This document shows, piece after piece, positions 170 to 15,117 of a DNA stretch of 15,117 bases; position 1 is the stretch's first letter, and the number at the start of each line of letters is the position of its first letter. The notes under the pieces were generated by a model. It searched no databases, was not told the DNA's origin, and saw nothing but the letters and a program-made list of their open reading frames with translations. Origin of the DNA: an uncultured Bacilli bacterium. Lineage in GTDB: Bacteria > Bacillota_I > Bacilli_A > RF39 > UBA660. The DNA is taken from contig CATKEA010000142.1 of NCBI GenBank assembly GCA_949746915.1, forward strand, positions 1 to 15,117, written 5' to 3'. A program made the position numbers and the translations under genes.

Positions 170-925
170 TTATTCCATTGGAATTGTCACAATTCCAGAA
201 TTTGTATTAAAACCATTACTATAATAATTAGGAATACTTCCTTGAACAATTTTAACAATGACAGGAATATCCCATGTCATCTTTCTAACTCCTGATGAAA
301 AAGGCAAAAGTATCATTGCAGTCATTTCTAAATGAATTCCAATTTCTACTAAAGCATTATTAATCCCATATTCACTAACTTTAGTAGTAATATTACCATC
401 TAAATTCCCAAGATAGCGAATTCTAATTGGAATTCTAGGACCTAAATTAGCCAAAAGTGGATTATTATATATTATTCCAATTGGAATATTAGCAACAATT
501 CCCTTTCTAAGATGTTCTAAATCAGAATACTGAAGCCCAAAATCTGTTCCTATTTCCTCTACTTTCCCCTCTTCTAATAATTTCATATTTTTATGAATTA
601 AAGTAGTAGCACTATCAAGTATTTGATTCACAAGAATAGAATTAAAATCAATTGTTTGAATACTACCATCAGGGGCTATTTGAGTATTAAATAGTGCCTC
701 ATTTTTAATTTTTTCATTTAAACCAGGTGAAAGAGACTTATTTATAATAGCCAAAGAAATCTTTCTTATTTCTACCTCAGCCGTTTCTAATAACATTGGC
801 GTTATTTTTAAAGCTAAAAAATAAAGCATTATAAAAGTAGATACTATTACTAATACCAATGATATAATTACTAATTTAACCTTATTAATTTTCCGACGTT
901 TTTTTAAATGAATACTTTTTCGCAT
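170..925 (-). CDS. yunB: Sporulation protein YunB
   Basis: A 251-residue protein, close to the usual YunB length. It has a basic N-terminus (many K/R in residues 1-17), one membrane segment at about 17-38, then a conserved extracytoplasmic part. That part contains the 'EVEIRKISLAIINKSL' segment after the membrane helix, a central 'GIIYNNPLLANLGPRIPIRIR' type segment and a C-terminal 'GVRKMTWDIPVIVKI' type segment. In Bacillus subtilis yunB is a sigma-E-controlled mother-cell gene needed for efficient sporulation; its biochemical role is unknown. The ATG at 925 is preceded by GTGAT six nt upstream. The gene stands alone between the terminator at 961-990 and yutD, with a CATATATT box upstream that resembles a sigma-E -10. 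The family call rests on overall sequence resemblance, topology and the yutD neighbour. Confidence 0.82.
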   Translation of the reverse strand: MRKSIHLKKRRKINKVKLVIISLVLVIVSTFIMLYFLALKITPMLLETAEVEIRKISLAIINKSLSPGLNEKIKNEALFNTQIAPDGSIQTIDFNSILVNQILDSATTLIHKNMKLLEEGKVEEIGTDFGLQYSDLEHLRKGIVANIPIGIIYNNPLLANLGPRIPIRIRYLGNLDGNITTKVSEYGINNALVEIGIHLEMTAMILLPFSSGVRKMTWDIPVIVKIVQGSIPNYYSNGFNTNSGIVTIPME

Positions 926-947
926 ACTAAAATCACATTCCTAATAA

Positions 948-955
948 AATATATG
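948..955 (-). promoter_or_regulatory. Possible sigma-E-like -10 box for yunB
   Basis: CATATATT at 955-948 resembles the sigma-E -10 consensus CATACAAT. It sits about 22 nt before the yunB ATG, just after the terminator of the preceding gene. Upstream, only a weak GTATCA-like -35 is seen, lying within the terminator arm. Plausible because yunB is sigma-E-dependent in Bacillus, but weak on sequence alone. Confidence 0.25.
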
Positions 956-960
956 TACAA

Positions 961-990
961 ATAAAAAGACTGATACCTTTAATATCAGCC
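961..990 (-). terminator. Rho-independent terminator after the 460-residue protein gene
   Basis: Read on the minus strand, GGCTGATA (990-983) pairs with TATCAGTC (975-968), with one G-U pair and a 7-nt loop. A T-rich tail TTTTTAT follows. It lies 15 nt after the stop codon at 1005 and separates this gene from yunB. Confidence 0.8.
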
Positions 991-1004
991 AATCACTATC
1001 TTAA

Positions 1005-2387
1005 CTATTTTACAAACATAAATATTCCAAAAGCTATCGCCATCATCTCTAATGCTAATAATGTAACAAATAAAAATGTACTAGAAAATCCAGAATTATT
1101 TATTCCAATGTTTTTTTCTTGAGAAGGTAACGTTGGTGGTAAATTGGGATTACTTTTAACTAATACTTGCCCACTCTTTGAAACACTTTGACTATTATCC
1201 ATAGCTTGTGAATCTTTCAGCCTAGGAAGTGATTCTAATTGAGAATACAATGTAGTCACTTCACCATAATTATCAACACTTGCTCCTTCTCCCCAACTAC
1301 TAACTTTTCCATCATCTAAAGCAAAAACACAAGATAAAGAACCATTATCTTTTTCTTTAATACTACCATTCTTTCTTTCAATCAATTCTTCTTCAGAAAG
1401 AAAAGTACTTTTAAATACTCCAAAATTATCTTTAGAAGTAAAATAATAATCTCTCTTAACATCTACTTGAGCATCAACATTACTTATATTAGTACTCATA
1501 TAAACACTATTTCCACTTGTCTCTTCATACAATTCTGTTTTAACATCTGTTCCATCAACTTTTTTAGAATCATAAAGACTATAATTAACAGAATCTGTAG
1601 TATTAACATTATTGCTAAGACCAGCTTCTACTTTACTTAAATTATTTAAGAAATCATTAGAAATTCTAATCTTATTATCACTTATAGTCATACCACTTCC
1701 ACGAAATTTATCTATATATGAAGAATCGTCAAATGAAATAATAATTTCCTTACCATTCTCTCTTGGAGTTAAACCGATATTAAAACCAGTATTATTACTT
1801 ACAGCACTATCAAACAAATAAGCAATCTTTACTATTTCAGCATCTGCATTTTGTAAATAATCTCTGTTAGCATCAATATGATCAACTAAATTATTCATAC
1901 TATGATAGAATTGTTCACTATCAATATTTTTATTAGCACTAGCAAATACAAAACTAGCTTTATCATTAACATTAGCCAAAATAAAACCAAATTTATTAAC
2001 AACGGAATTATCCATTAAAGCATAAATTAATTGCTTATTATTAACATCATATGGAATAATTACACTATCATCAAGTAATCTTGCTCGATGAACTCTTCTG
2101 CTCATCAACTTATCAAAAAAGACATTTTGAGAAGTTTCTGGAATTACAACAGGCTCCTTAACATCCTCAATCATACTAGAATTAATTTCTGTTTTAAATT
2201 TTTCAAAAGCCTCATCACTAGAAGCAATATGCAAAAAAACATTCTTTAAATGACTAGAAATATTATAAGCTGGATTATTCATCAAATTAACAAGACCAGC
2301 TCTTGCACTCTTTGTATCAATTGCACTATCAAGAACATCAGACACTAAATTCATTACTTCTTCTTGTTCCATAACTCTATCATTCAC
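1005..2387 (-). CDS. Uncharacterised tail-anchored membrane protein
   Basis: I do not recognise this 460-residue protein. The N-terminal 70 residues are helical and polar, the middle is Asn/Ser/Asp-rich and probably beta-rich, and a Pro/Ser/Gln-rich linker at about 400-425 leads to one C-terminal hydrophobic segment (about 436-459) ending FMFVK. There is no signal peptide, so the bulk is probably cytoplasmic with a C-terminal tail anchor, the same topology as the 295-residue protein that starts this gene group. The start is a GTG (2387-2385) with AGGAGG seven nt upstream. That Shine-Dalgarno sequence overlaps the TAG stop of the DUF2752 gene, implying co-transcription and possibly coupled translation. 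It is the last gene of the group and is followed by a terminator. A plus-strand frame inside it (1612-1821) is a shadow. Confidence 0.8.
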   Translation of the reverse strand: MNDRVMEQEEVMNLVSDVLDSAIDTKSARAGLVNLMNNPAYNISSHLKNVFLHIASSDEAFEKFKTEINSSMIEDVKEPVVIPETSQNVFFDKLMSRRVHRARLLDDSVIIPYDVNNKQLIYALMDNSVVNKFGFILANVNDKASFVFASANKNIDSEQFYHSMNNLVDHIDANRDYLQNADAEIVKIAYLFDSAVSNNTGFNIGLTPRENGKEIIISFDDSSYIDKFRGSGMTISDNKIRISNDFLNNLSKVEAGLSNNVNTTDSVNYSLYDSKKVDGTDVKTELYEETSGNSVYMSTNISNVDAQVDVKRDYYFTSKDNFGVFKSTFLSEEELIERKNGSIKEKDNGSLSCVFALDDGKVSSWGEGASVDNYGEVTTLYSQLESLPRLKDSQAMDNSQSVSKSGQVLVKSNPNLPPTLPSQEKNIGINNSGFSSTFLFVTLLALEMMAIAFGIFMFVK

Positions 2388-2398
2388 AATAATTCCTC

Positions 2399-2806
2399 CT
2401 AAATAGGTTGCAAAAATGAAAAATAATCGAAATTTCGTAAAATACCAAATAAAATAGTAACAAAAAGTAAAAATGCTACCATCTTTTGATTAATAAAACT
2501 TCCATTATTAATTACTTTACCATTTATAAAATAATAAATAAACTTTATTAAATAATAAATTGCAACTGGTATTAACAATACTAATAAAAAATTATTTCTA
2601 AAACCGCTTTTAATATCCAACTCCATAAAACTGTAAACTGCCCTTGTCATTCCACAGCCAGGACAATAAAATCCTGTAATCTCGTGAAATAAACAAGGAA
2701 CAGAAACAGAAAAAGTATTAAAAACATACTTTATTAAATATGCCAGTACAACAATAAAAATAATACTGACAATAACTATCTTAATTCTTTTATGCTTGTT
2801 GTCCAT
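2399..2806 (-). CDS. DUF2752 family membrane protein
   Basis: Starting at the ATG at 2806, this encodes 135 residues. The hallmark is CPGCGMTR at residues 48-55, following a further Cys at 38 and the sequence HEITGFY; this is the signature of DUF2752. Three hydrophobic segments are visible at about 10-28, 72-93 and 108-123. The function of the family is unknown; the Cys pair suggests metal or redox chemistry, but that is inference. The start overlaps the 3' end of the DUF4234 gene by 17 nt. A longer in-frame start at 2830 exists, but neither has a clear Shine-Dalgarno sequence, so translation is probably coupled to the upstream gene. The shorter start is preferred because it gives a basic N-terminus (MDNKHKRIK) before the first helix. 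Confidence 0.85.
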   Translation of the reverse strand: MDNKHKRIKIVIVSIIFIVVLAYLIKYVFNTFSVSVPCLFHEITGFYCPGCGMTRAVYSFMELDIKSGFRNNFLLVLLIPVAIYYLIKFIYYFINGKVINNGSFINQKMVAFLLFVTILFGILRNFDYFSFLQPI

Positions 2807-3164
2807 TATAATCAAAATCAGAGATTTCATTTAAAGCGCTTTGAATTAAAATATAATTTACAAGTTCAAGTCCAAATAAACCTAGAACTAGATATAATAC
2901 AGAGTTATCTGTTGCTTTCATATTTCTCTTTGTTTGTGCTTCATATACTAATTTACCCATTTTATAATTCCAATAAATAGAATATAATCCACAAGTAACA
3001 AGAGTAAGTAAAAAAGCTGTTCCACCACTCATACTTCTATCTCCACTGGCTTTAGAAGCATCGTCAGTTAAACCAATGAACCAAACAATACCATAAATAC
3101 CACATGTAACAATTGATAGTAATACAGTAGTTACAACCTCTCGTTTACCAATTCTCTCGATCAT
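2790..3164 (-). CDS. DUF4234 family membrane protein
   Basis: A 124-residue protein with three hydrophobic segments (about 11-31, 48-67, 88-110). The first two carry the same motif: VTCGIYGIVWF at 19-29 and VTCGLYSIYWN at 56-66, an internal duplication typical of DUF4234 proteins, which have R..V....LS..TCGIY.I.W. The family has no assigned function. The start ATG at 3164 follows GGAAGGAGTG at good spacing. It lies 16 nt after the 295-residue gene, and its 3' end overlaps the DUF2752 gene, so it is the second cistron of a four-gene group. DUF4234 and DUF2752 are both small integral membrane proteins, which suggests a shared envelope role, but nothing in the sequence defines it. Confidence 0.85.
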   Translation of the reverse strand: MIERIGKREVVTTVLLSIVTCGIYGIVWFIGLTDDASKASGDRSMSGGTAFLLTLVTCGLYSIYWNYKMGKLVYEAQTKRNMKATDNSVLYLVLGLFGLELVNYILIQSALNEISDFDYNGQQA

Positions 3165-3180
3165 AAAATCACTCCTTCCA

Positions 3181-4068
3181 TCACTTTACTCTACAAGTAT
3201 TATACACTATAAATAAAATTACGGCAATAACAACTAACACAAAAATTACAGATAAAACTTTAAAAAATAAATTTTCTGAACTATTATCAACAAATGAAGT
3301 ATCCAACTCCTCACTTTTCTCAACTATTTCATTTACTAAATCCTGTTCAGATAAATCCATACTTCTAGTATAAAAAGAGGTATCCAACTTTTCATCTTCA
3401 TCTTCTTCTGAATCTTTAGGTTCATAATTTTCAACCATATCCTCAGATATCGCCTCTGTTATAATCGTTTCATCAATTCTATCAGGCAACAACTCGCTAA
3501 GTAAATCTTCATCTCCTGAGGCATTTTCTTCTTCTTTTAACCTCTCATTAACCTTACGACTTAAGGAATTACTCGTTATTGTATTGATTAAATCTTCAAT
3601 ATCAGAATCTTCTCCATCACGATACATTTCCTTTTTCTTTTGAACTATCTTTTCTAATTTTTCCTGATCAAGACCTTCTAAAATATTAAAATCACTAGCC
3701 CTAAGCTTTCTTTTGTATTCTAATTCATCTTCCTTACTACGATTTTCCCTAGCCTTCTTTAATACCTCATTGATATCATACTCATTACTATTAGTTTCCT
3801 CTAAAAAAGAAAAAGGCAATGTCTTCTCTTCAATTGTATTTACCTCTATTTCCCTAGCAGAACTTCTAACACGTTGTCTTTGATAATCTTCTCTATTAAA
3901 TGGCTCATCTTTATCAATAAATTTAGTTGGTATCGTAACTTCTTTTACTGCTGGAAACTCTGTGTATGCCATATTCTTAAAGTCATCATATTTTTGTTTA
4001 TTACGCTCTAATCTGCTAGACGTTCTATTTTGTTCATCATCATGATATTTTTCCATTCGACTAGCCAT
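3181..4068 (-). CDS. Acidic, charged C-terminally anchored membrane protein of unknown function
   Basis: This 295-residue protein is not recognised. It opens with a conserved-looking basic/polar stretch (MASRMEKYHDDEQ, then SSRLERNKQKYDDF), runs through a highly charged region rich in Glu, Asp, Lys and Arg that is probably largely disordered or helical (for example KKARENRSKEDELEYKRK), and becomes strongly acidic at about 185-265. A single hydrophobic segment at about 271-290 precedes NTCRVK at the C-terminus. The likely topology is a long cytoplasmic domain with a C-terminal anchor. Such architecture occurs in cell-division and envelope scaffolding proteins, but no specific link can be shown. 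The ATG at 4068 follows GAGGGTGAT. It is the first gene of the DUF4234/DUF2752 group and is transcribed divergently from the ferredoxin gene. Confidence 0.8.
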   Translation of the reverse strand: MASRMEKYHDDEQNRTSSRLERNKQKYDDFKNMAYTEFPAVKEVTIPTKFIDKDEPFNREDYQRQRVRSSAREIEVNTIEEKTLPFSFLEETNSNEYDINEVLKKARENRSKEDELEYKRKLRASDFNILEGLDQEKLEKIVQKKKEMYRDGEDSDIEDLINTITSNSLSRKVNERLKEEENASGDEDLLSELLPDRIDETIITEAISEDMVENYEPKDSEEDEDEKLDTSFYTRSMDLSEQDLVNEIVEKSEELDTSFVDNSSENLFFKVLSVIFVLVVIAVILFIVYNTCRVK

Positions 4069-4093
4069 ATAATCACCCTCTTAGTATATATTT

Positions 4094-4122
4094 AATATAT
4101 CATATATCTAAAAAAAACAAAA
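4094..4122 (-). promoter_or_regulatory. Candidate promoter of the four-gene membrane-protein group
   Basis: An extended -10, TGATATATT (4102-4094), lies 26 nt before the ATG at 4068. Seventeen nt upstream is only a poor -35, TTTTGT (4122-4117). An alternative -10, TATACT (4088-4083), lies too close to the Shine-Dalgarno sequence. The region is very AT-rich, so chance matches are likely. Confidence 0.4.
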
Positions 4123-4142
4123 GCCGTTTTTGTATTTTTAAG

Positions 4143-4171
4143 TTGTTATTTTTTTTATCTTTTTGTATAAT
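4143..4171 (+). promoter_or_regulatory. Sigma-A-type promoter of the ferredoxin gene
   Basis: TTGTTA (4143-4148), a 17-nt spacer and a perfect TATAAT (4166-4171). Transcription would start near 4178-4179, at the first base of the Shine-Dalgarno sequence GAGGTGAT (4179-4186), giving a leader of only about 12 nt. Confidence 0.75.
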
Positions 4172-4189
4172 CTTATATGAGGTGATAAA

Positions 4190-4378
4190 ATGAAACCAAA
4201 AGTTAATAAAGATATTTGCATAGGTTGTGGTGCTTGCCAGGCTATAGCAGAAAAAGTTTTCGAAGTTGGTAATGATGGTTTAGCAGAAGCTATTGTTGAT
4301 GTAGTACCTGAAGAAGAAAAAGAAAATGCAATTGATGCTAAAGAAAGCTGTCCAACTGGAGCTATATCAATTGAATAA
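4190..4378 (+). CDS. fer: Ferredoxin, single [4Fe-4S] cluster
   Basis: A 62-residue cytoplasmic electron carrier. Cluster ligands are visible as C10-IG-C13-GA-C16 near the N-terminus and C54-P near the C-terminus, the pattern of the short Bacillus-type Fer ferredoxins with one [4Fe-4S] cluster. The second half of the classic two-cluster clostridial ferredoxin is absent. The core is acidic (GNDGLAEAIVDVVPEEEKEN), as expected for a protein docking with reductases. Start ATG 4190 has GAGGTGAT four nt upstream. It is a monocistronic unit with its own promoter and terminator and is the only plus-strand gene in the window, so the neighbours do not indicate its redox partner. The minus-strand frame overlapping it (4138-4398) is a shadow. 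Confidence 0.95.
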   Translation: MKPKVNKDICIGCGACQAIAEKVFEVGNDGLAEAIVDVVPEEEKENAIDAKESCPTGAISIE

Positions 4379-4408
4379 AACATTGGATAACACACCAATG
4401 TTTTTTTT
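4377..4408 (+). terminator. Rho-independent terminator of the ferredoxin gene
   Basis: AAAACATTGG (4377-4386) pairs with CCAATGTTTT (4395-4404) around an 8-nt loop and runs into eight consecutive T (4401-4408). On the minus strand the tail is only TTTTATT, so it may also weakly terminate rluB, which ends at 4416. Confidence 0.9.
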
Positions 4409-4415
4409 GACCCTT

Positions 4416-5141
4416 CTATTTATTTTTAACATTAACAAGATTATATAACTGACTAACCTCTTTTTTCGTTAGTTTACGATATTCACCAGACTTTAAACCT
4501 TTAAGAGTTAAAAATGCTATTCTTTCTCGCTTTAACTTAATAACTGGAAGATAAACAGCATCTAACATTCTTTTAACTTGATGATTTTTTCCATCATGAA
4601 TAGTAATTTCTAATATTGACGTTTTCGCTTCATTATCAACACTACGAAGCTTACATCTAGTAGCTTTAACAATAACTCCATCTAAATTAATTCCTTTTTT
4701 TAATGGAACAATATTACTACCAGTTGCAACACCCTCAACCTTAGCAACGTAAACTTTATCTATCTCATTTTTAGGATGCATCATATAATTAGCAAATTCC
4801 CCATCATTGGTAAGTAATAAAAGACCAGTCGTATCATAATCAAGTCTTCCAACTGGATATATTCGCCTCTTATCATCAATTATATCAACAACTGTCTTTC
4901 TATGTTTATCATCACTTGTTGTAGTAACAACACCACGAGGTTTATTAAGAATATAATAAACCTTTTCTTCCCGTTCAAGTTCTTTACCATCAACTTCAAT
5001 TACTGACCTATTATCAACTTTAACACCCATCTCATAAACTACTTTGCCATCAACTTTAACATGTCCTTTTTTTATAAGCTCTTCTGCTTTTCTTCTAGAT
5101 GTAACTCCACTATTTGCTATAACCTTCTGTAAACGCTCCAT
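4416..5141 (-). CDS. rluB: 23S rRNA pseudouridine synthase B (RluB/RsuA family)
   Basis: A 241-residue enzyme that isomerises a specific uridine in 23S rRNA to pseudouridine. An S4 RNA-binding domain occupies about residues 1-48 (MERLQKVIANSGVTSRRKAE). It is followed by the RsuA/RluB-type catalytic domain with YILNKPRGVVTT (63-74) and GRLDYDTTGLLLLTNDG (98-114), where D101 is the catalytic aspartate. Further family signatures are DGKNHQVKRML and LKRERI near the C-terminus. RluB, RluE, RluF and RsuA share these motifs; RluB is favoured because Bacillus rluB also lies near spmA/spmB. The ATG at 5141 follows AAAGGA about ten nt upstream. It is separated from spmB by 60 nt containing a good promoter, so it can be expressed independently of the sporulation operon. 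Confidence 0.92.
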   Translation of the reverse strand: MERLQKVIANSGVTSRRKAEELIKKGHVKVDGKVVYEMGVKVDNRSVIEVDGKELEREEKVYYILNKPRGVVTTTSDDKHRKTVVDIIDDKRRIYPVGRLDYDTTGLLLLTNDGEFANYMMHPKNEIDKVYVAKVEGVATGSNIVPLKKGINLDGVIVKATRCKLRSVDNEAKTSILEITIHDGKNHQVKRMLDAVYLPVIKLKRERIAFLTLKGLKSGEYRKLTKKEVSQLYNLVNVKNK

Positions 5142-5166
5142 TCATTCCACGTCCTTTTCTATAGCT

Positions 5167-5195
5167 ACTATAACATATTTATTATTAAGTTGCAA
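5167..5195 (-). promoter_or_regulatory. Sigma-A promoter of rluB
   Basis: TTGCAA (5195-5190), a 17-nt spacer and TATAGT (5172-5167), with a TG at the extended -10 position. It lies in the spmB-rluB gap and would give vegetative expression of rluB separately from the sporulation genes upstream. Confidence 0.7.
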
Positions 5196-5201
5196 TAAAT
5201 A

Positions 5202-5720
5202 CTAGCCAAATATAAAAACCATCAAAATAATACTCATAACAATTGTAATCAAATCAGCAAACAAACCAGCCGCTAGTGCATACCTAATTTTCTTTATACC
5301 TATACTCCCAAAATATAAAGATAGAACATAAATCGTCGTATCAGTCGCTCCCTGCATACAAGCAGCTAAATTTCCAATCAAAGAATCAGCACCATAATTT
5401 TTAATTAAATCTGTCATAAGCAAAAATGAAGCATTCCCAGAAATCGGTCTAATAATTGCCATAGGCATAACCTCAACTGGTATACCAAGTGATGAAAAAA
5501 ATGGTTTTACCACACTAAATAAAGTTGTAATAAAACCACTTCCAAGTAAAATATTAACACCAAATATCATAGCAACTAAACAAGGAAATACACTAGCACC
5601 CAAATGAAGTCCTTCCTTTGCTCCTCTAATAAAGCTATCATAAATATCTACTTTTTTTATAAGTGCATACACAATAACAACAAAAACCACAACTGGTAAA
5701 AAATAGTCACTTATACTCAT
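5202..5720 (-). CDS. spmB: Spore maturation protein B
   Basis: A 172-residue polytopic membrane protein with hydrophobic segments at about 6-22, 43-62, 84-102, 115-137 and 147-170. It carries the conserved SpmB segments RPISGNASF (91-99) and QGATDTTIYVLSLYFG (123-138), part of the nucleoside-transporter 'gate' domain superfamily. In Bacillus, SpmA and SpmB act together in spore core dehydration and heat resistance; mutants make spores of raised water content. Length is close to the Bacillus protein (about 178). The ATG at 5720 overlaps the spmA TGA (ATGA), with GAAGGTG upstream, so the two are translationally coupled. Last gene of the dacB-spmA-spmB operon. Confidence 0.95.
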   Translation of the reverse strand: MSISDYFLPVVVFVVIVYALIKKVDIYDSFIRGAKEGLHLGASVFPCLVAMIFGVNILLGSGFITTLFSVVKPFFSSLGIPVEVMPMAIIRPISGNASFLLMTDLIKNYGADSLIGNLAACMQGATDTTIYVLSLYFGSIGIKKIRYALAAGLFADLITIVMSIILMVFIFG

Positions 5721-9810: not shown

Positions 9811-11197
9811 AAAATTCACAATTGCCTGGTGTTCTTGGATAAGGAATAACATCTCTTATGTTATCAACACCAGTTATATACATTAATAATCTCTCAAAGC
9901 CAATTCCAAAGCCAGAATGAATACAGCTTCCATATTTTCTTAAATTTGTATACCAATAATAAGTTTCATTATCCATGTTCAACTCATCCATACGAGCTAT
10001 CAACTTATCATAGTCATCTTCACGCTGTGATCCACCCATTAGCTCTCCAACACCTGGAACTTCTAAATCTGCTGCTGCTACTGTTTTTCCATCTGGATTT
10101 AGTTTCATATAAAACGACTTGATATCCTTTGGCCAATTTGTAATAAACACAGGTCCATTAAAATACTCTGTAATATATTTTTCATGTTCCTTAGCAATAT
10201 CTTCCCCATATTCAGGCTCAAATTCAAACTTTTGACCTTTATTTTTAGCCTCTTTTAAAATTGTAATTACTTCTTCATGACTAACTCTTGTAAATTTACT
10301 GTTAATTAACTTTGTTAACTTGTCAAGTAATCCTTTTTCAATGAACTTGTCAAGAAAAGACATTTCATCTTTACAGTGTTCTAACACATAAGTAATTACA
10401 TATTTCAAGCATTCTTCTTCAATGTCCATAATTCCCTCTAAATCACAAAAAGCTACTTCTGGTTCAATCATCCAAAACTCATTAGCATGAAATTTAGTAT
10501 TAGAATTTTCAGCCCTAAAAGTAGGACCAAAAGTATAAGTCTTTTTAAAAGCTGTTGCAAATGTTTCTGCTTCAAGTTGTCCAGATACTGTCAAACCAAC
10601 TGTTCTTCCAAATAATTCATCATCCTCATTTACCTTCCCTGTCTTAGCAATTTTATCCAAATCTTGTGTTGTTACTCTAAACATTTCACCTGCACCCTCA
10701 CAATCAGATGCCGTAAAGAATGGCGCATGAAAATAAACATAACCTCTATCCTGAAAATATTTATGAATAGCTTCTGCAGTAACACTTCTAATTCTAAAAA
10801 CTGCTTGAAAAAGATTTGTTCTTGGTCTTAAATATGCTTGCTCTCTTAAAAATTCTACTGAATGCTTTTTAGGTTGCATCGGATAATCTTCTGGGCAATC
10901 TCCTTCTAACCTAATTTCTTTAACACTAACTTCAATATCTTGTCCTCCACCAACAGATTCAATCACAAGACCAATAACTGTAATTGCAGAACCATTATGA
11001 AATTTCTGAATCTCCTCAAAAGAATCAAGTTTATTATCATATACTAATTGAATATGTTTAAAACATGTTCCGTCTGAAAAATCAATAAAACCAAATTCCT
11101 TTTGTTTACGATGATTACGTATCCATCCTTGTAATGTTACTTCTTTACCAATATAACTTTTGACATCTTTATAAATGTCCTTTACATCTAAATTCAT
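9809..11197 (-). CDS. asnS: Asparaginyl-tRNA synthetase
   Basis: This class II aminoacyl-tRNA synthetase charges tRNA-Asn with asparagine using ATP. It has 462 residues from the ATG at 11197, which has AAAGGGTGAT upstream; a longer frame from 11233 runs into the T-box terminator and is rejected. An OB-fold anticodon-binding domain (about 1-100, with VTLQGWIRNHRKQKEFGFIDF) precedes the catalytic core. ITS-type loop FTASDCEGAGEMF (161-173) and QLEAE (207-211) are the AsnRS signatures. Motif 2 is FRAENSNTKFHANEFWMIEPE (about 227-247) and motif 3 is GFGIGFERLLMYITG near the C-terminus, ending IPYPRTPGNCEF. The latter and SDCEGAGEMF mark AsnRS rather than AspRS. It is controlled by the T-box leader directly upstream and ends in its own terminator. 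Confidence 0.97.
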   Translation of the reverse strand: MNLDVKDIYKDVKSYIGKEVTLQGWIRNHRKQKEFGFIDFSDGTCFKHIQLVYDNKLDSFEEIQKFHNGSAITVIGLVIESVGGGQDIEVSVKEIRLEGDCPEDYPMQPKKHSVEFLREQAYLRPRTNLFQAVFRIRSVTAEAIHKYFQDRGYVYFHAPFFTASDCEGAGEMFRVTTQDLDKIAKTGKVNEDDELFGRTVGLTVSGQLEAETFATAFKKTYTFGPTFRAENSNTKFHANEFWMIEPEVAFCDLEGIMDIEEECLKYVITYVLEHCKDEMSFLDKFIEKGLLDKLTKLINSKFTRVSHEEVITILKEAKNKGQKFEFEPEYGEDIAKEHEKYITEYFNGPVFITNWPKDIKSFYMKLNPDGKTVAAADLEVPGVGELMGGSQREDDYDKLIARMDELNMDNETYYWYTNLRKYGSCIHSGFGIGFERLLMYITGVDNIRDVIPYPRTPGNCEF

Positions 11198-14729: not shown

Positions 14730-14760
14730 GAAAAAGAAAAACACTGATATCATTCAGTGT
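14730..14760 (-). terminator. Rho-independent terminator of the DGR-target-like gene
   Basis: ACACTGA (14760-14754) pairs perfectly with TCAGTGT (14747-14741) around a 6-nt loop, followed by TTTTCTTTTT on the minus strand. It lies 11 nt after the TAA at 14771. Confidence 0.9.
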
Positions 14761-14770
14761 CATATATATC

Positions 14771-15117
14771 TTAATTAATATTAGCGAGTTCTATACTAAC
14801 TTCAAACGGAAAATTAGCTGTTCCATTTCCATCACTTATCATTGTCCCAGGTGCAAGTGAAACTGACGGACGGACGCCGCTAGTGACGACGACGTTGTTG
14901 AAGCTCAGATCGGAGTTCACATAGAACCCGTACGCAACGCGGTTGCTGATGAAGTAGTAAGGCGACAAAGCCCACCACCATTGTCCTGTATATAAATAAC
15001 TTTTATTACTACCATTTTTTCCATGACCTGCTAATGTTGCTTCATCAGCGGTTAGTAGTGCTACTGGATAGGTTAACTTTCCATTTCCCGCCTCACTACT
15101 TACGGTAAACTTATCAT
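14771..15117 (-). CDS. C-terminal part of a surface-type protein with a DGR-like variable region (5' end outside window)
   Basis: The frame is open from the window edge (15115) to the TAA at 14773-14771: 114 visible residues. An internal TTG at 14968 is not a real start, because homologous-looking sequence continues upstream of it. The sequence reads: a conserved lead-in (KLTYPVALLTADEATLAG, then YLYTGQWWWALSP), a variable-looking block (residues about 50-80: YYFISNRVAYGFYVNSDLS and FNNVVVTSG), a conserved closing GVRPSVSLAPG, and a short tail (ISDGNGTANFPFEVSIELANIN). This W-W..LSP / VNSDG-like / GVRP.VSL pattern is that of DUF6273-like, formylglycine-enzyme/C-type-lectin-fold ligand-binding domains that are common targets of diversity-generating retroelements. 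Many such proteins in gut Bacillota start with a prepilin-like leader, but that end is not visible. A terminator follows. Confidence 0.82.
   Translation of the reverse strand, partial: DKFTVSSEAGNGKLTYPVALLTADEATLAGHGKNGSNKSYLYTGQWWWALSPYYFISNRVAYGFYVNSDLSFNNVVVTSGVRPSVSLAPGTMISDGNGTANFPFEVSIELANIN
14864..14970 (-). repeat. Candidate variable region (VR) of a diversity-generating retroelement
   Basis: This stretch is about 55% G+C (58 of the 105 bases in codons 14968-14864), against a strongly AT-rich window and AT-rich flanks in the same gene. Of those 35 codons, 22 end in C. They include many members of the NNC set that adenine mutagenesis of AAC generates (TAC, TTC, ATC, AGC, AAC, GTC, GGC), while the rest of the gene uses A/T-ending codons. 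It sits at the expected place: the ligand-binding surface between WWWALSP and GVRPSVSL, near the C-terminus. The matching template repeat and reverse transcriptase are not in the window, so the call rests on composition, codon pattern and position. Confidence 0.7.

Follow-up and report, generated by a model that had tools for sequence, protein, structure and literature searches.

Isolates of Treponema denticola carry two to seven targets of a diversity-generating retroelement (DGR), some of them remote, and target remnants are reported from isolates that have neither the reverse transcriptase (RT) nor the template (PMC4891356). In phages, the domain DUF6273 holds the variable region (VR) of DGR targets, namely the tentaclins (PMC10743442) and targets in Faecalibacterium prophages (PMC11792537). 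HRDC and PF01624-type MSL proteins are described as DGR accessory proteins (PMC10053308), and Roux et al. (2021) state that their own RT-anchored metagenome survey could not detect remote targets (PMC8144416). Since mechanism, remote targets, remnants, accessory genes and domain are each already known, the novelty of the system described here lies in their combination in the present lineage. Literature searches returned no paper joining "diversity-generating retroelement" and "RF39".

The DNA analysed here (the window) is 15,117 nt long and corresponds to a whole contig, C142, whose last gene is the presumed target (Table 1). On the account given in PMC4891356, the T. denticola system resembles the present one in that a core cassette, one in that case, is accompanied by several scattered targets and by remnants; it belongs to a different organism and has different target sequences, and here the module that contains the VR is found on 12 contigs, with AT-like VRs in most of the copies measured and no core cassette found in the assembly. 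The tentaclins and the Faecalibacterium prophage targets likewise have a DUF6273-like, C-type-lectin-resembling module with a VR, but, as presented in those reports (PMC10743442, PMC11792537), they are phage proteins. The window's gene piece is without a DUF6273 match. The DGR of Bordetella phage BPP-1, as described in PMC3240598, shares with our system a 3'-terminal VR and, as counted in the RT-linked relatives, adenine-specific rewriting; it is phage-borne and the inverted repeat that follows the VR in the window is only a candidate counterpart.

Table 1. Coordinates of features in the window and in two RT-linked relatives.
Feature	Coordinates	Strand	Remarks
DGR target gene, 3' part; C-terminal module with C-type-lectin-like model	14771..15115	-	114 codons plus stop (14771-14773), frame open at the contig end; from homology, module alignment and fold of homologous copy C216
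VR core	14867..14967	-	TGTCGCC ... GGCGTCCGTCCG; GC-rich, NNC codons; ends approximately those of template/variable pairs of RT-linked relatives
VR 3' end and conserved flank; candidate IMH and retrohoming homology	14820..14876	-	57 bases, all but one position alike in the window, C86, C49 and C119; putative IMH function
Inverted repeat	14741..14760	-	7-bp stem with a loop of 6 bases, lying 10 bases downstream of the stop codon and followed by a T-run
Locus L094 of G020	target 867-3020; template 3123-3233; MutS_I-like 3500-3901; bAvd-like 3885-4241; RT 4222-5355
Locus L131 of G029	template 182-292		followed by MutS_I-like gene, bAvd-like gene, an ORF and RT

The first-pass annotation had described a GC-rich island with an excess of C-ending codons inside an AT-rich gene, and both features were borne out by our counts. 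The GC fraction is 0.554 in the island core and 0.285 in the window, and the highest value reached by any 101-bp stretch lying wholly before position 14820 is 0.455. Twenty-one of the 33 codons of the core end in C, compared with 115 of 4382 (2.6%) in the 18 other minus-strand ORFs counted (binomial tail, 1.6e-25); the maximum in those ORFs is five NNC codons per 33, and the flanks of the target gene itself contain 3 in 49 and 1 in 31. The two residue runs that had been singled out, Tyr-Tyr-Phe-Ile-Ser-Asn and Asn-Asn-Val-Val-Val, are both present in the translated frame, and the closing motif is there as well, the module ending in GVRPSVSL.

In the copies of the window's own genome, the module ends in GVRPSVSL or a similar sequence and includes a divergent stretch, which is preceded by a W-x-L/M-S/T-P-like motif and followed by G-V-R-P. 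The predicted structure of the homologous copy C216 resembles C-type-lectin folds with middling scores; a Foldseek search of the module model against the PDB yielded no significant match, and C-type-lectin domains were named for the model only by a second look with VIA. The DUF6273 profile (PF19789) had no match in the window piece or in copies C86, C88 and C216, scored 20.3 bits on the homologue from relative G020 (Pfam cut-off, 23.5), and is carried by a few database homologues of the module. The full-length copies C86, C216 and C88 are probably membrane-anchored, because their N-termini, read by eye, are basic and then hydrophobic, and by analogy with these paralogues the protein encoded by the window's incomplete gene may be anchored in the same way. 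Many of the database proteins among P0064-P0175 are 850-1150 residues long and combine von Willebrand A domains with the same C-terminal module, which is hypervariable in the groups examined; a search for papers joining "diversity-generating retroelement", "von Willebrand factor" and "Saccharibacteria" found none.

Counting the window's own genome, the module is present in 21 of 60 genomes. A motif like G-L-P-I-G-x-x-T-S-Q marks DGR RTs; it was found in 12 of the 30 RT loci scanned, and also in RTs adjoining templates. Four relatives have a homologous target beside a DGR-type RT, and in these the template repeat starts and stops at approximately the positions where the island does. We chose the template for each target by plain identity and then counted differences over the protein-defined core. 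Every difference in the four RT-adjacent targets fell at a template adenine (13/13 in G020, locus L094; 19/19 in G019, L029; 12/12 in Candidatus Scybalousia, L138; 12/12 in CALVRJ, L155; 56/56 in sum), with adenine making up 0.22-0.40 of the template. For targets on contigs other than that of the template, the counts were 19/20 in G019 (L095) and 15/17, 13/19 and 14/29 in G029 (L128, L129 and L130, respectively), giving 117/141 for all eight targets. The rising share of non-adenine differences in G029 fits targets that have drifted since they were last rewritten, or the use of another template.

Target, template and RT also lie close together in G019 (L029), Candidatus Scybalousia and CALVRJ. 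MutS_I-like and bAvd-like genes were detected in L046, L094 and L131, several with scores under the Pfam cut-offs, and in the latter two cassettes they sit between template and RT; the L094 genes score 18.0 bits (cut-off, 20.6) and 37.8 bits (cut-off, 40), respectively, and both L131 genes score above the cut-offs. The bAvd profile had no match in G019. In L131, the ORF at 1269-1904, which separates the bAvd-like gene from the RT, encodes 211 residues with a membrane-like start. L155 contains a second template-like match at 10159 (identity 0.76; best match, 0.88), perhaps a second template or a target.

A hairpin with the loop CTCA or CTCT directly follows four RT-proximal targets (L094, 3025-3054; L138; L155; L131, 104-129). 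Its stem is 13 bp long, or 11 bp in L131, compared with the 7-10 bp stems and GRNA loops given for phage DGRs in PMC3240598. The fifth RT-proximal target, that of G019, has a different stem, the CTCW-loop hairpin was not seen after the other targets inspected, and a search for the motif across the window's own genome returned 0 matches. The hairpin is a possible target-site mark. The shorter inverted repeat after the stop codon in the window may act as a DGR target hairpin, or it may be no more than a terminator.

Some RT-bearing relatives do not conform to this arrangement. Within at most 20 kb of sequence surrounding the target or the RT, no template was found for the eight VRs parsed at the RT loci of G062, G063, G064 and G066, nor for the single VR of L154, and these nine VRs from five RT-bearing genomes count against a simple DGR picture. 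Islands like that of the window occur in C86 and most RT-linked relatives, L154 being an exception, with a VR only 0.01 above its flanks in GC. The pattern parsed no VR in L159, L160 and L178. Large module expansions were seen in G033 (25 matches) and G030 (10 matches). The RT of G033 (L096, L024) is without the G-L-P-I-G-x-x-T-S-Q-like motif despite this expansion, RVT_1 had no match in G030, and the VRs measured (one from G033, five from G030) differ from their flanks by -0.02 to +0.05 in GC, suggesting that module copies may also multiply in the absence of diversification.

With the gene piece as query, blastn found 15 matches in the window's own assembly (1.42 Mb, 274 contigs, 86.8% complete), spread over 12 contigs of which the window is one. 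With C119 left out, its VR being interrupted by a contig end, three of 11 VRs are GC-richer than their flanks by at least 0.10 (C86, +0.19; window, +0.11; C216, +0.10), and the other eight differ by +0.01 to -0.15. NNC codons cannot specify K, E, Q, M or W; these residues are absent from the 27-residue VRs of all three copies, and each of the eight others has one to four of them. Comparison of the window and C86 VRs gave different results for their two halves. In the 3' halves, first and second codon positions differ at 13 of 30 sites and third positions at only 2 of 15; in the 5' halves, 11 of 16 third positions differ, as much as first and second positions do. One common template for both VRs was rejected on the strength of those 11 differences, and the contrast between the halves suggests perhaps two related templates or an indel.

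Variation among homologous proteins was examined in a set of 228, made up of 220 among the matches listed, which for two of the searches were the best 120 hits, and eight from the own genome; 199 of the set were parsed and 29 dropped. The parsed proteins form 136 pairs, non-independent and drawn from a database clustered at 90% identity, whose flanks match to 97% or more. VR identity in these pairs has a median of 0.46, and 110 of the 136 fall below 0.6. In the largest group (n = 16), 14 members have VRs of the same length; across these, a flank column shows about one residue type and a VR column as many as eight. At the protein level, most of the close-homologue groups examined vary within the VR segment alone. 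Database protein P0062 (722 residues), which could represent either an allelic or a paralogous form of the window's gene product, is 0.95 identical to the window piece in the flanks and 0.33 identical in the VR. P0060 and C86 agree throughout those module flanks that were compared and differ at one residue of the VR, and P0027 equals C216 in both flanks and VR. A counter-example is provided by the four records P0133-P0136, in which the VR is identical and GC-rich. The DGR-RT profile had no match in the genome of locus L136, which encodes P0136. As a GC-rich VR of a relative lacking a DGR-RT match can be identical in four records, a GC island is no proof of present activity. A phage origin of the module was considered and rejected: no module relative in IMG/VR was confirmed by tblastn, none close was found in the phage collection, and the exact pattern of the window VR had no match in IMG/VR.

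The first-pass annotation had placed the cassette just beyond position 15117 or elsewhere in the genome, and had proposed a genome-wide search for the template repeat and its RT. That search left the placement unconfirmed, as it found neither template nor DGR RT in the own assembly. An adenine-degenerate pattern of the window VR, run with up to three mismatches against 60 genomes including the own, recovered only the window itself, and the corresponding C86 pattern recovered only C86 from the own genome; both patterns have two fixed ends, such that a template with other ends would escape them. All blastn matches of the module in the own genome could be placed in module copies, leaving no separate template, and no second copy of the window's VR segment was found in the assembly. 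RVT_1, a four-row DGR-RT profile and the bAvd profile also had no match there. Elsewhere, RVT_1 matched in 30 of the 60 genomes, own counted, and bAvd in 13 of 40 (seven above the cut-off); the DGR-RT query was positive in 4 of 8 other genomes, indicating that it works. Because the assembly is incomplete and its contigs break at the module, the absence of RT and template is weak evidence; that a DGR acts at the window is inferred. Locus L046 of G001, a member of the same genus, carries a DGR-like set of MutS_I, bAvd-like and RT genes (1-2024); its contig opens in the terminal part of a different gene, which reads GFRVVLAP, and positions 870-990 resemble, by eye, a template for a different target family. 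None of the own genome's 11 VRs had a template-like match in L046.

The island shares its position, its ends and its module with RT-linked targets that differ from their templates at adenines only, it bears the NNC signature, and variation is confined to the corresponding segment in most homologue groups. On these grounds the reading of the gene as a DGR target, already put forward in the first-pass annotation, is upheld, and we judge it near-certain that the island is the VR of such a target by origin. We consider it likely that the target is a remote one of a chromosomal DGR whose cassette lies in sequence missing from the assembly, and probable that a working cassette still serves the VR. 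Elsewhere in the genome, a DGR RT and an Avd-like gene would then adjoin a template repeat. The transcript of this repeat would be copied with random incorporation wherever the template has an adenine, and mutagenic retrohoming would put the mutated cDNA in place of the VR bounded by TGTCGCC and GGCGTCCGTCCG. Codons of the AAC kind in the template would become NNC, altering up to about 27 residues of a C-terminal C-type-lectin-like domain, and rewriting of the VR would change the binding specificity of an exported, membrane-anchored protein. We infer the presence and continued function of the cassette and the binding role of the window's protein; its anchoring is read across from the full-length paralogues.

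A DGR may instead have written the VR and since been lost, so that the segment is now a frozen relic; further copies in the genome are perhaps relics too. This is unlikely, but it would account for the lack of RT, template and bAvd in the assembly and for the eight own VRs that exceed their flanks in GC by 0.01 at most, and it has parallels in L136, with its GC-rich VR identical in P0133-P0136 and no DGR-RT match in the genome, and in the remnant targets reported from RT-less T. denticola isolates (PMC4891356). Weighing against loss, the assembly is 86.8% complete, in 274 pieces, and the window contig ends within the target gene itself; the window VR has not drifted back to AT, unlike most other copies, and P0062 differs from the window piece mainly within the VR. 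Gene conversion among paralogues or silent cassettes, or import from a GC-rich donor, would dispense with a DGR altogether. Recombination is conceivable, as the module lies on 12 own contigs and some flanks are near-identical, and a single adenine-rewritten template does not explain the 11 of 16 differing third positions in the 5' halves of the window and C86 VRs. The 3' halves, with their 13/30 and 2/15 differences, fit NNC rewriting, the RT-linked homologues change at adenines only, and the assembly yielded no further copy of the window's segment; we rate this explanation as highly improbable. Nothing specific speaks for chance composition, nor for a functional DNA element that is GC-rich but not hypervariable; either is scarcely credible given the codon signature (1.6e-25), the similar islands in C86 and most RT-linked relatives (+0.01 in L154 notwithstanding) and the concentration of variation among homologues in this segment.

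A single VR, spotted by its composition, has led here to a family of DGR targets among small, AT-rich genomes. Relatives supplied templates, accessory genes and RT, and the copies resemble several stages of drift. More tentatively, and with doubts of our own, we suggest that a multi-template retroelement might feed about 12 dispersed surface lectins that enter and leave diversification, with fresh VRs being GC-rich and retired ones drifting to AT, such that the genome would hold a graded archive of past binding sites. If so, a GC island alone would reveal remote DGR targets that RT-anchored surveys miss. With copies at apparent stages of drift, the turnover of DGR targets becomes testable.
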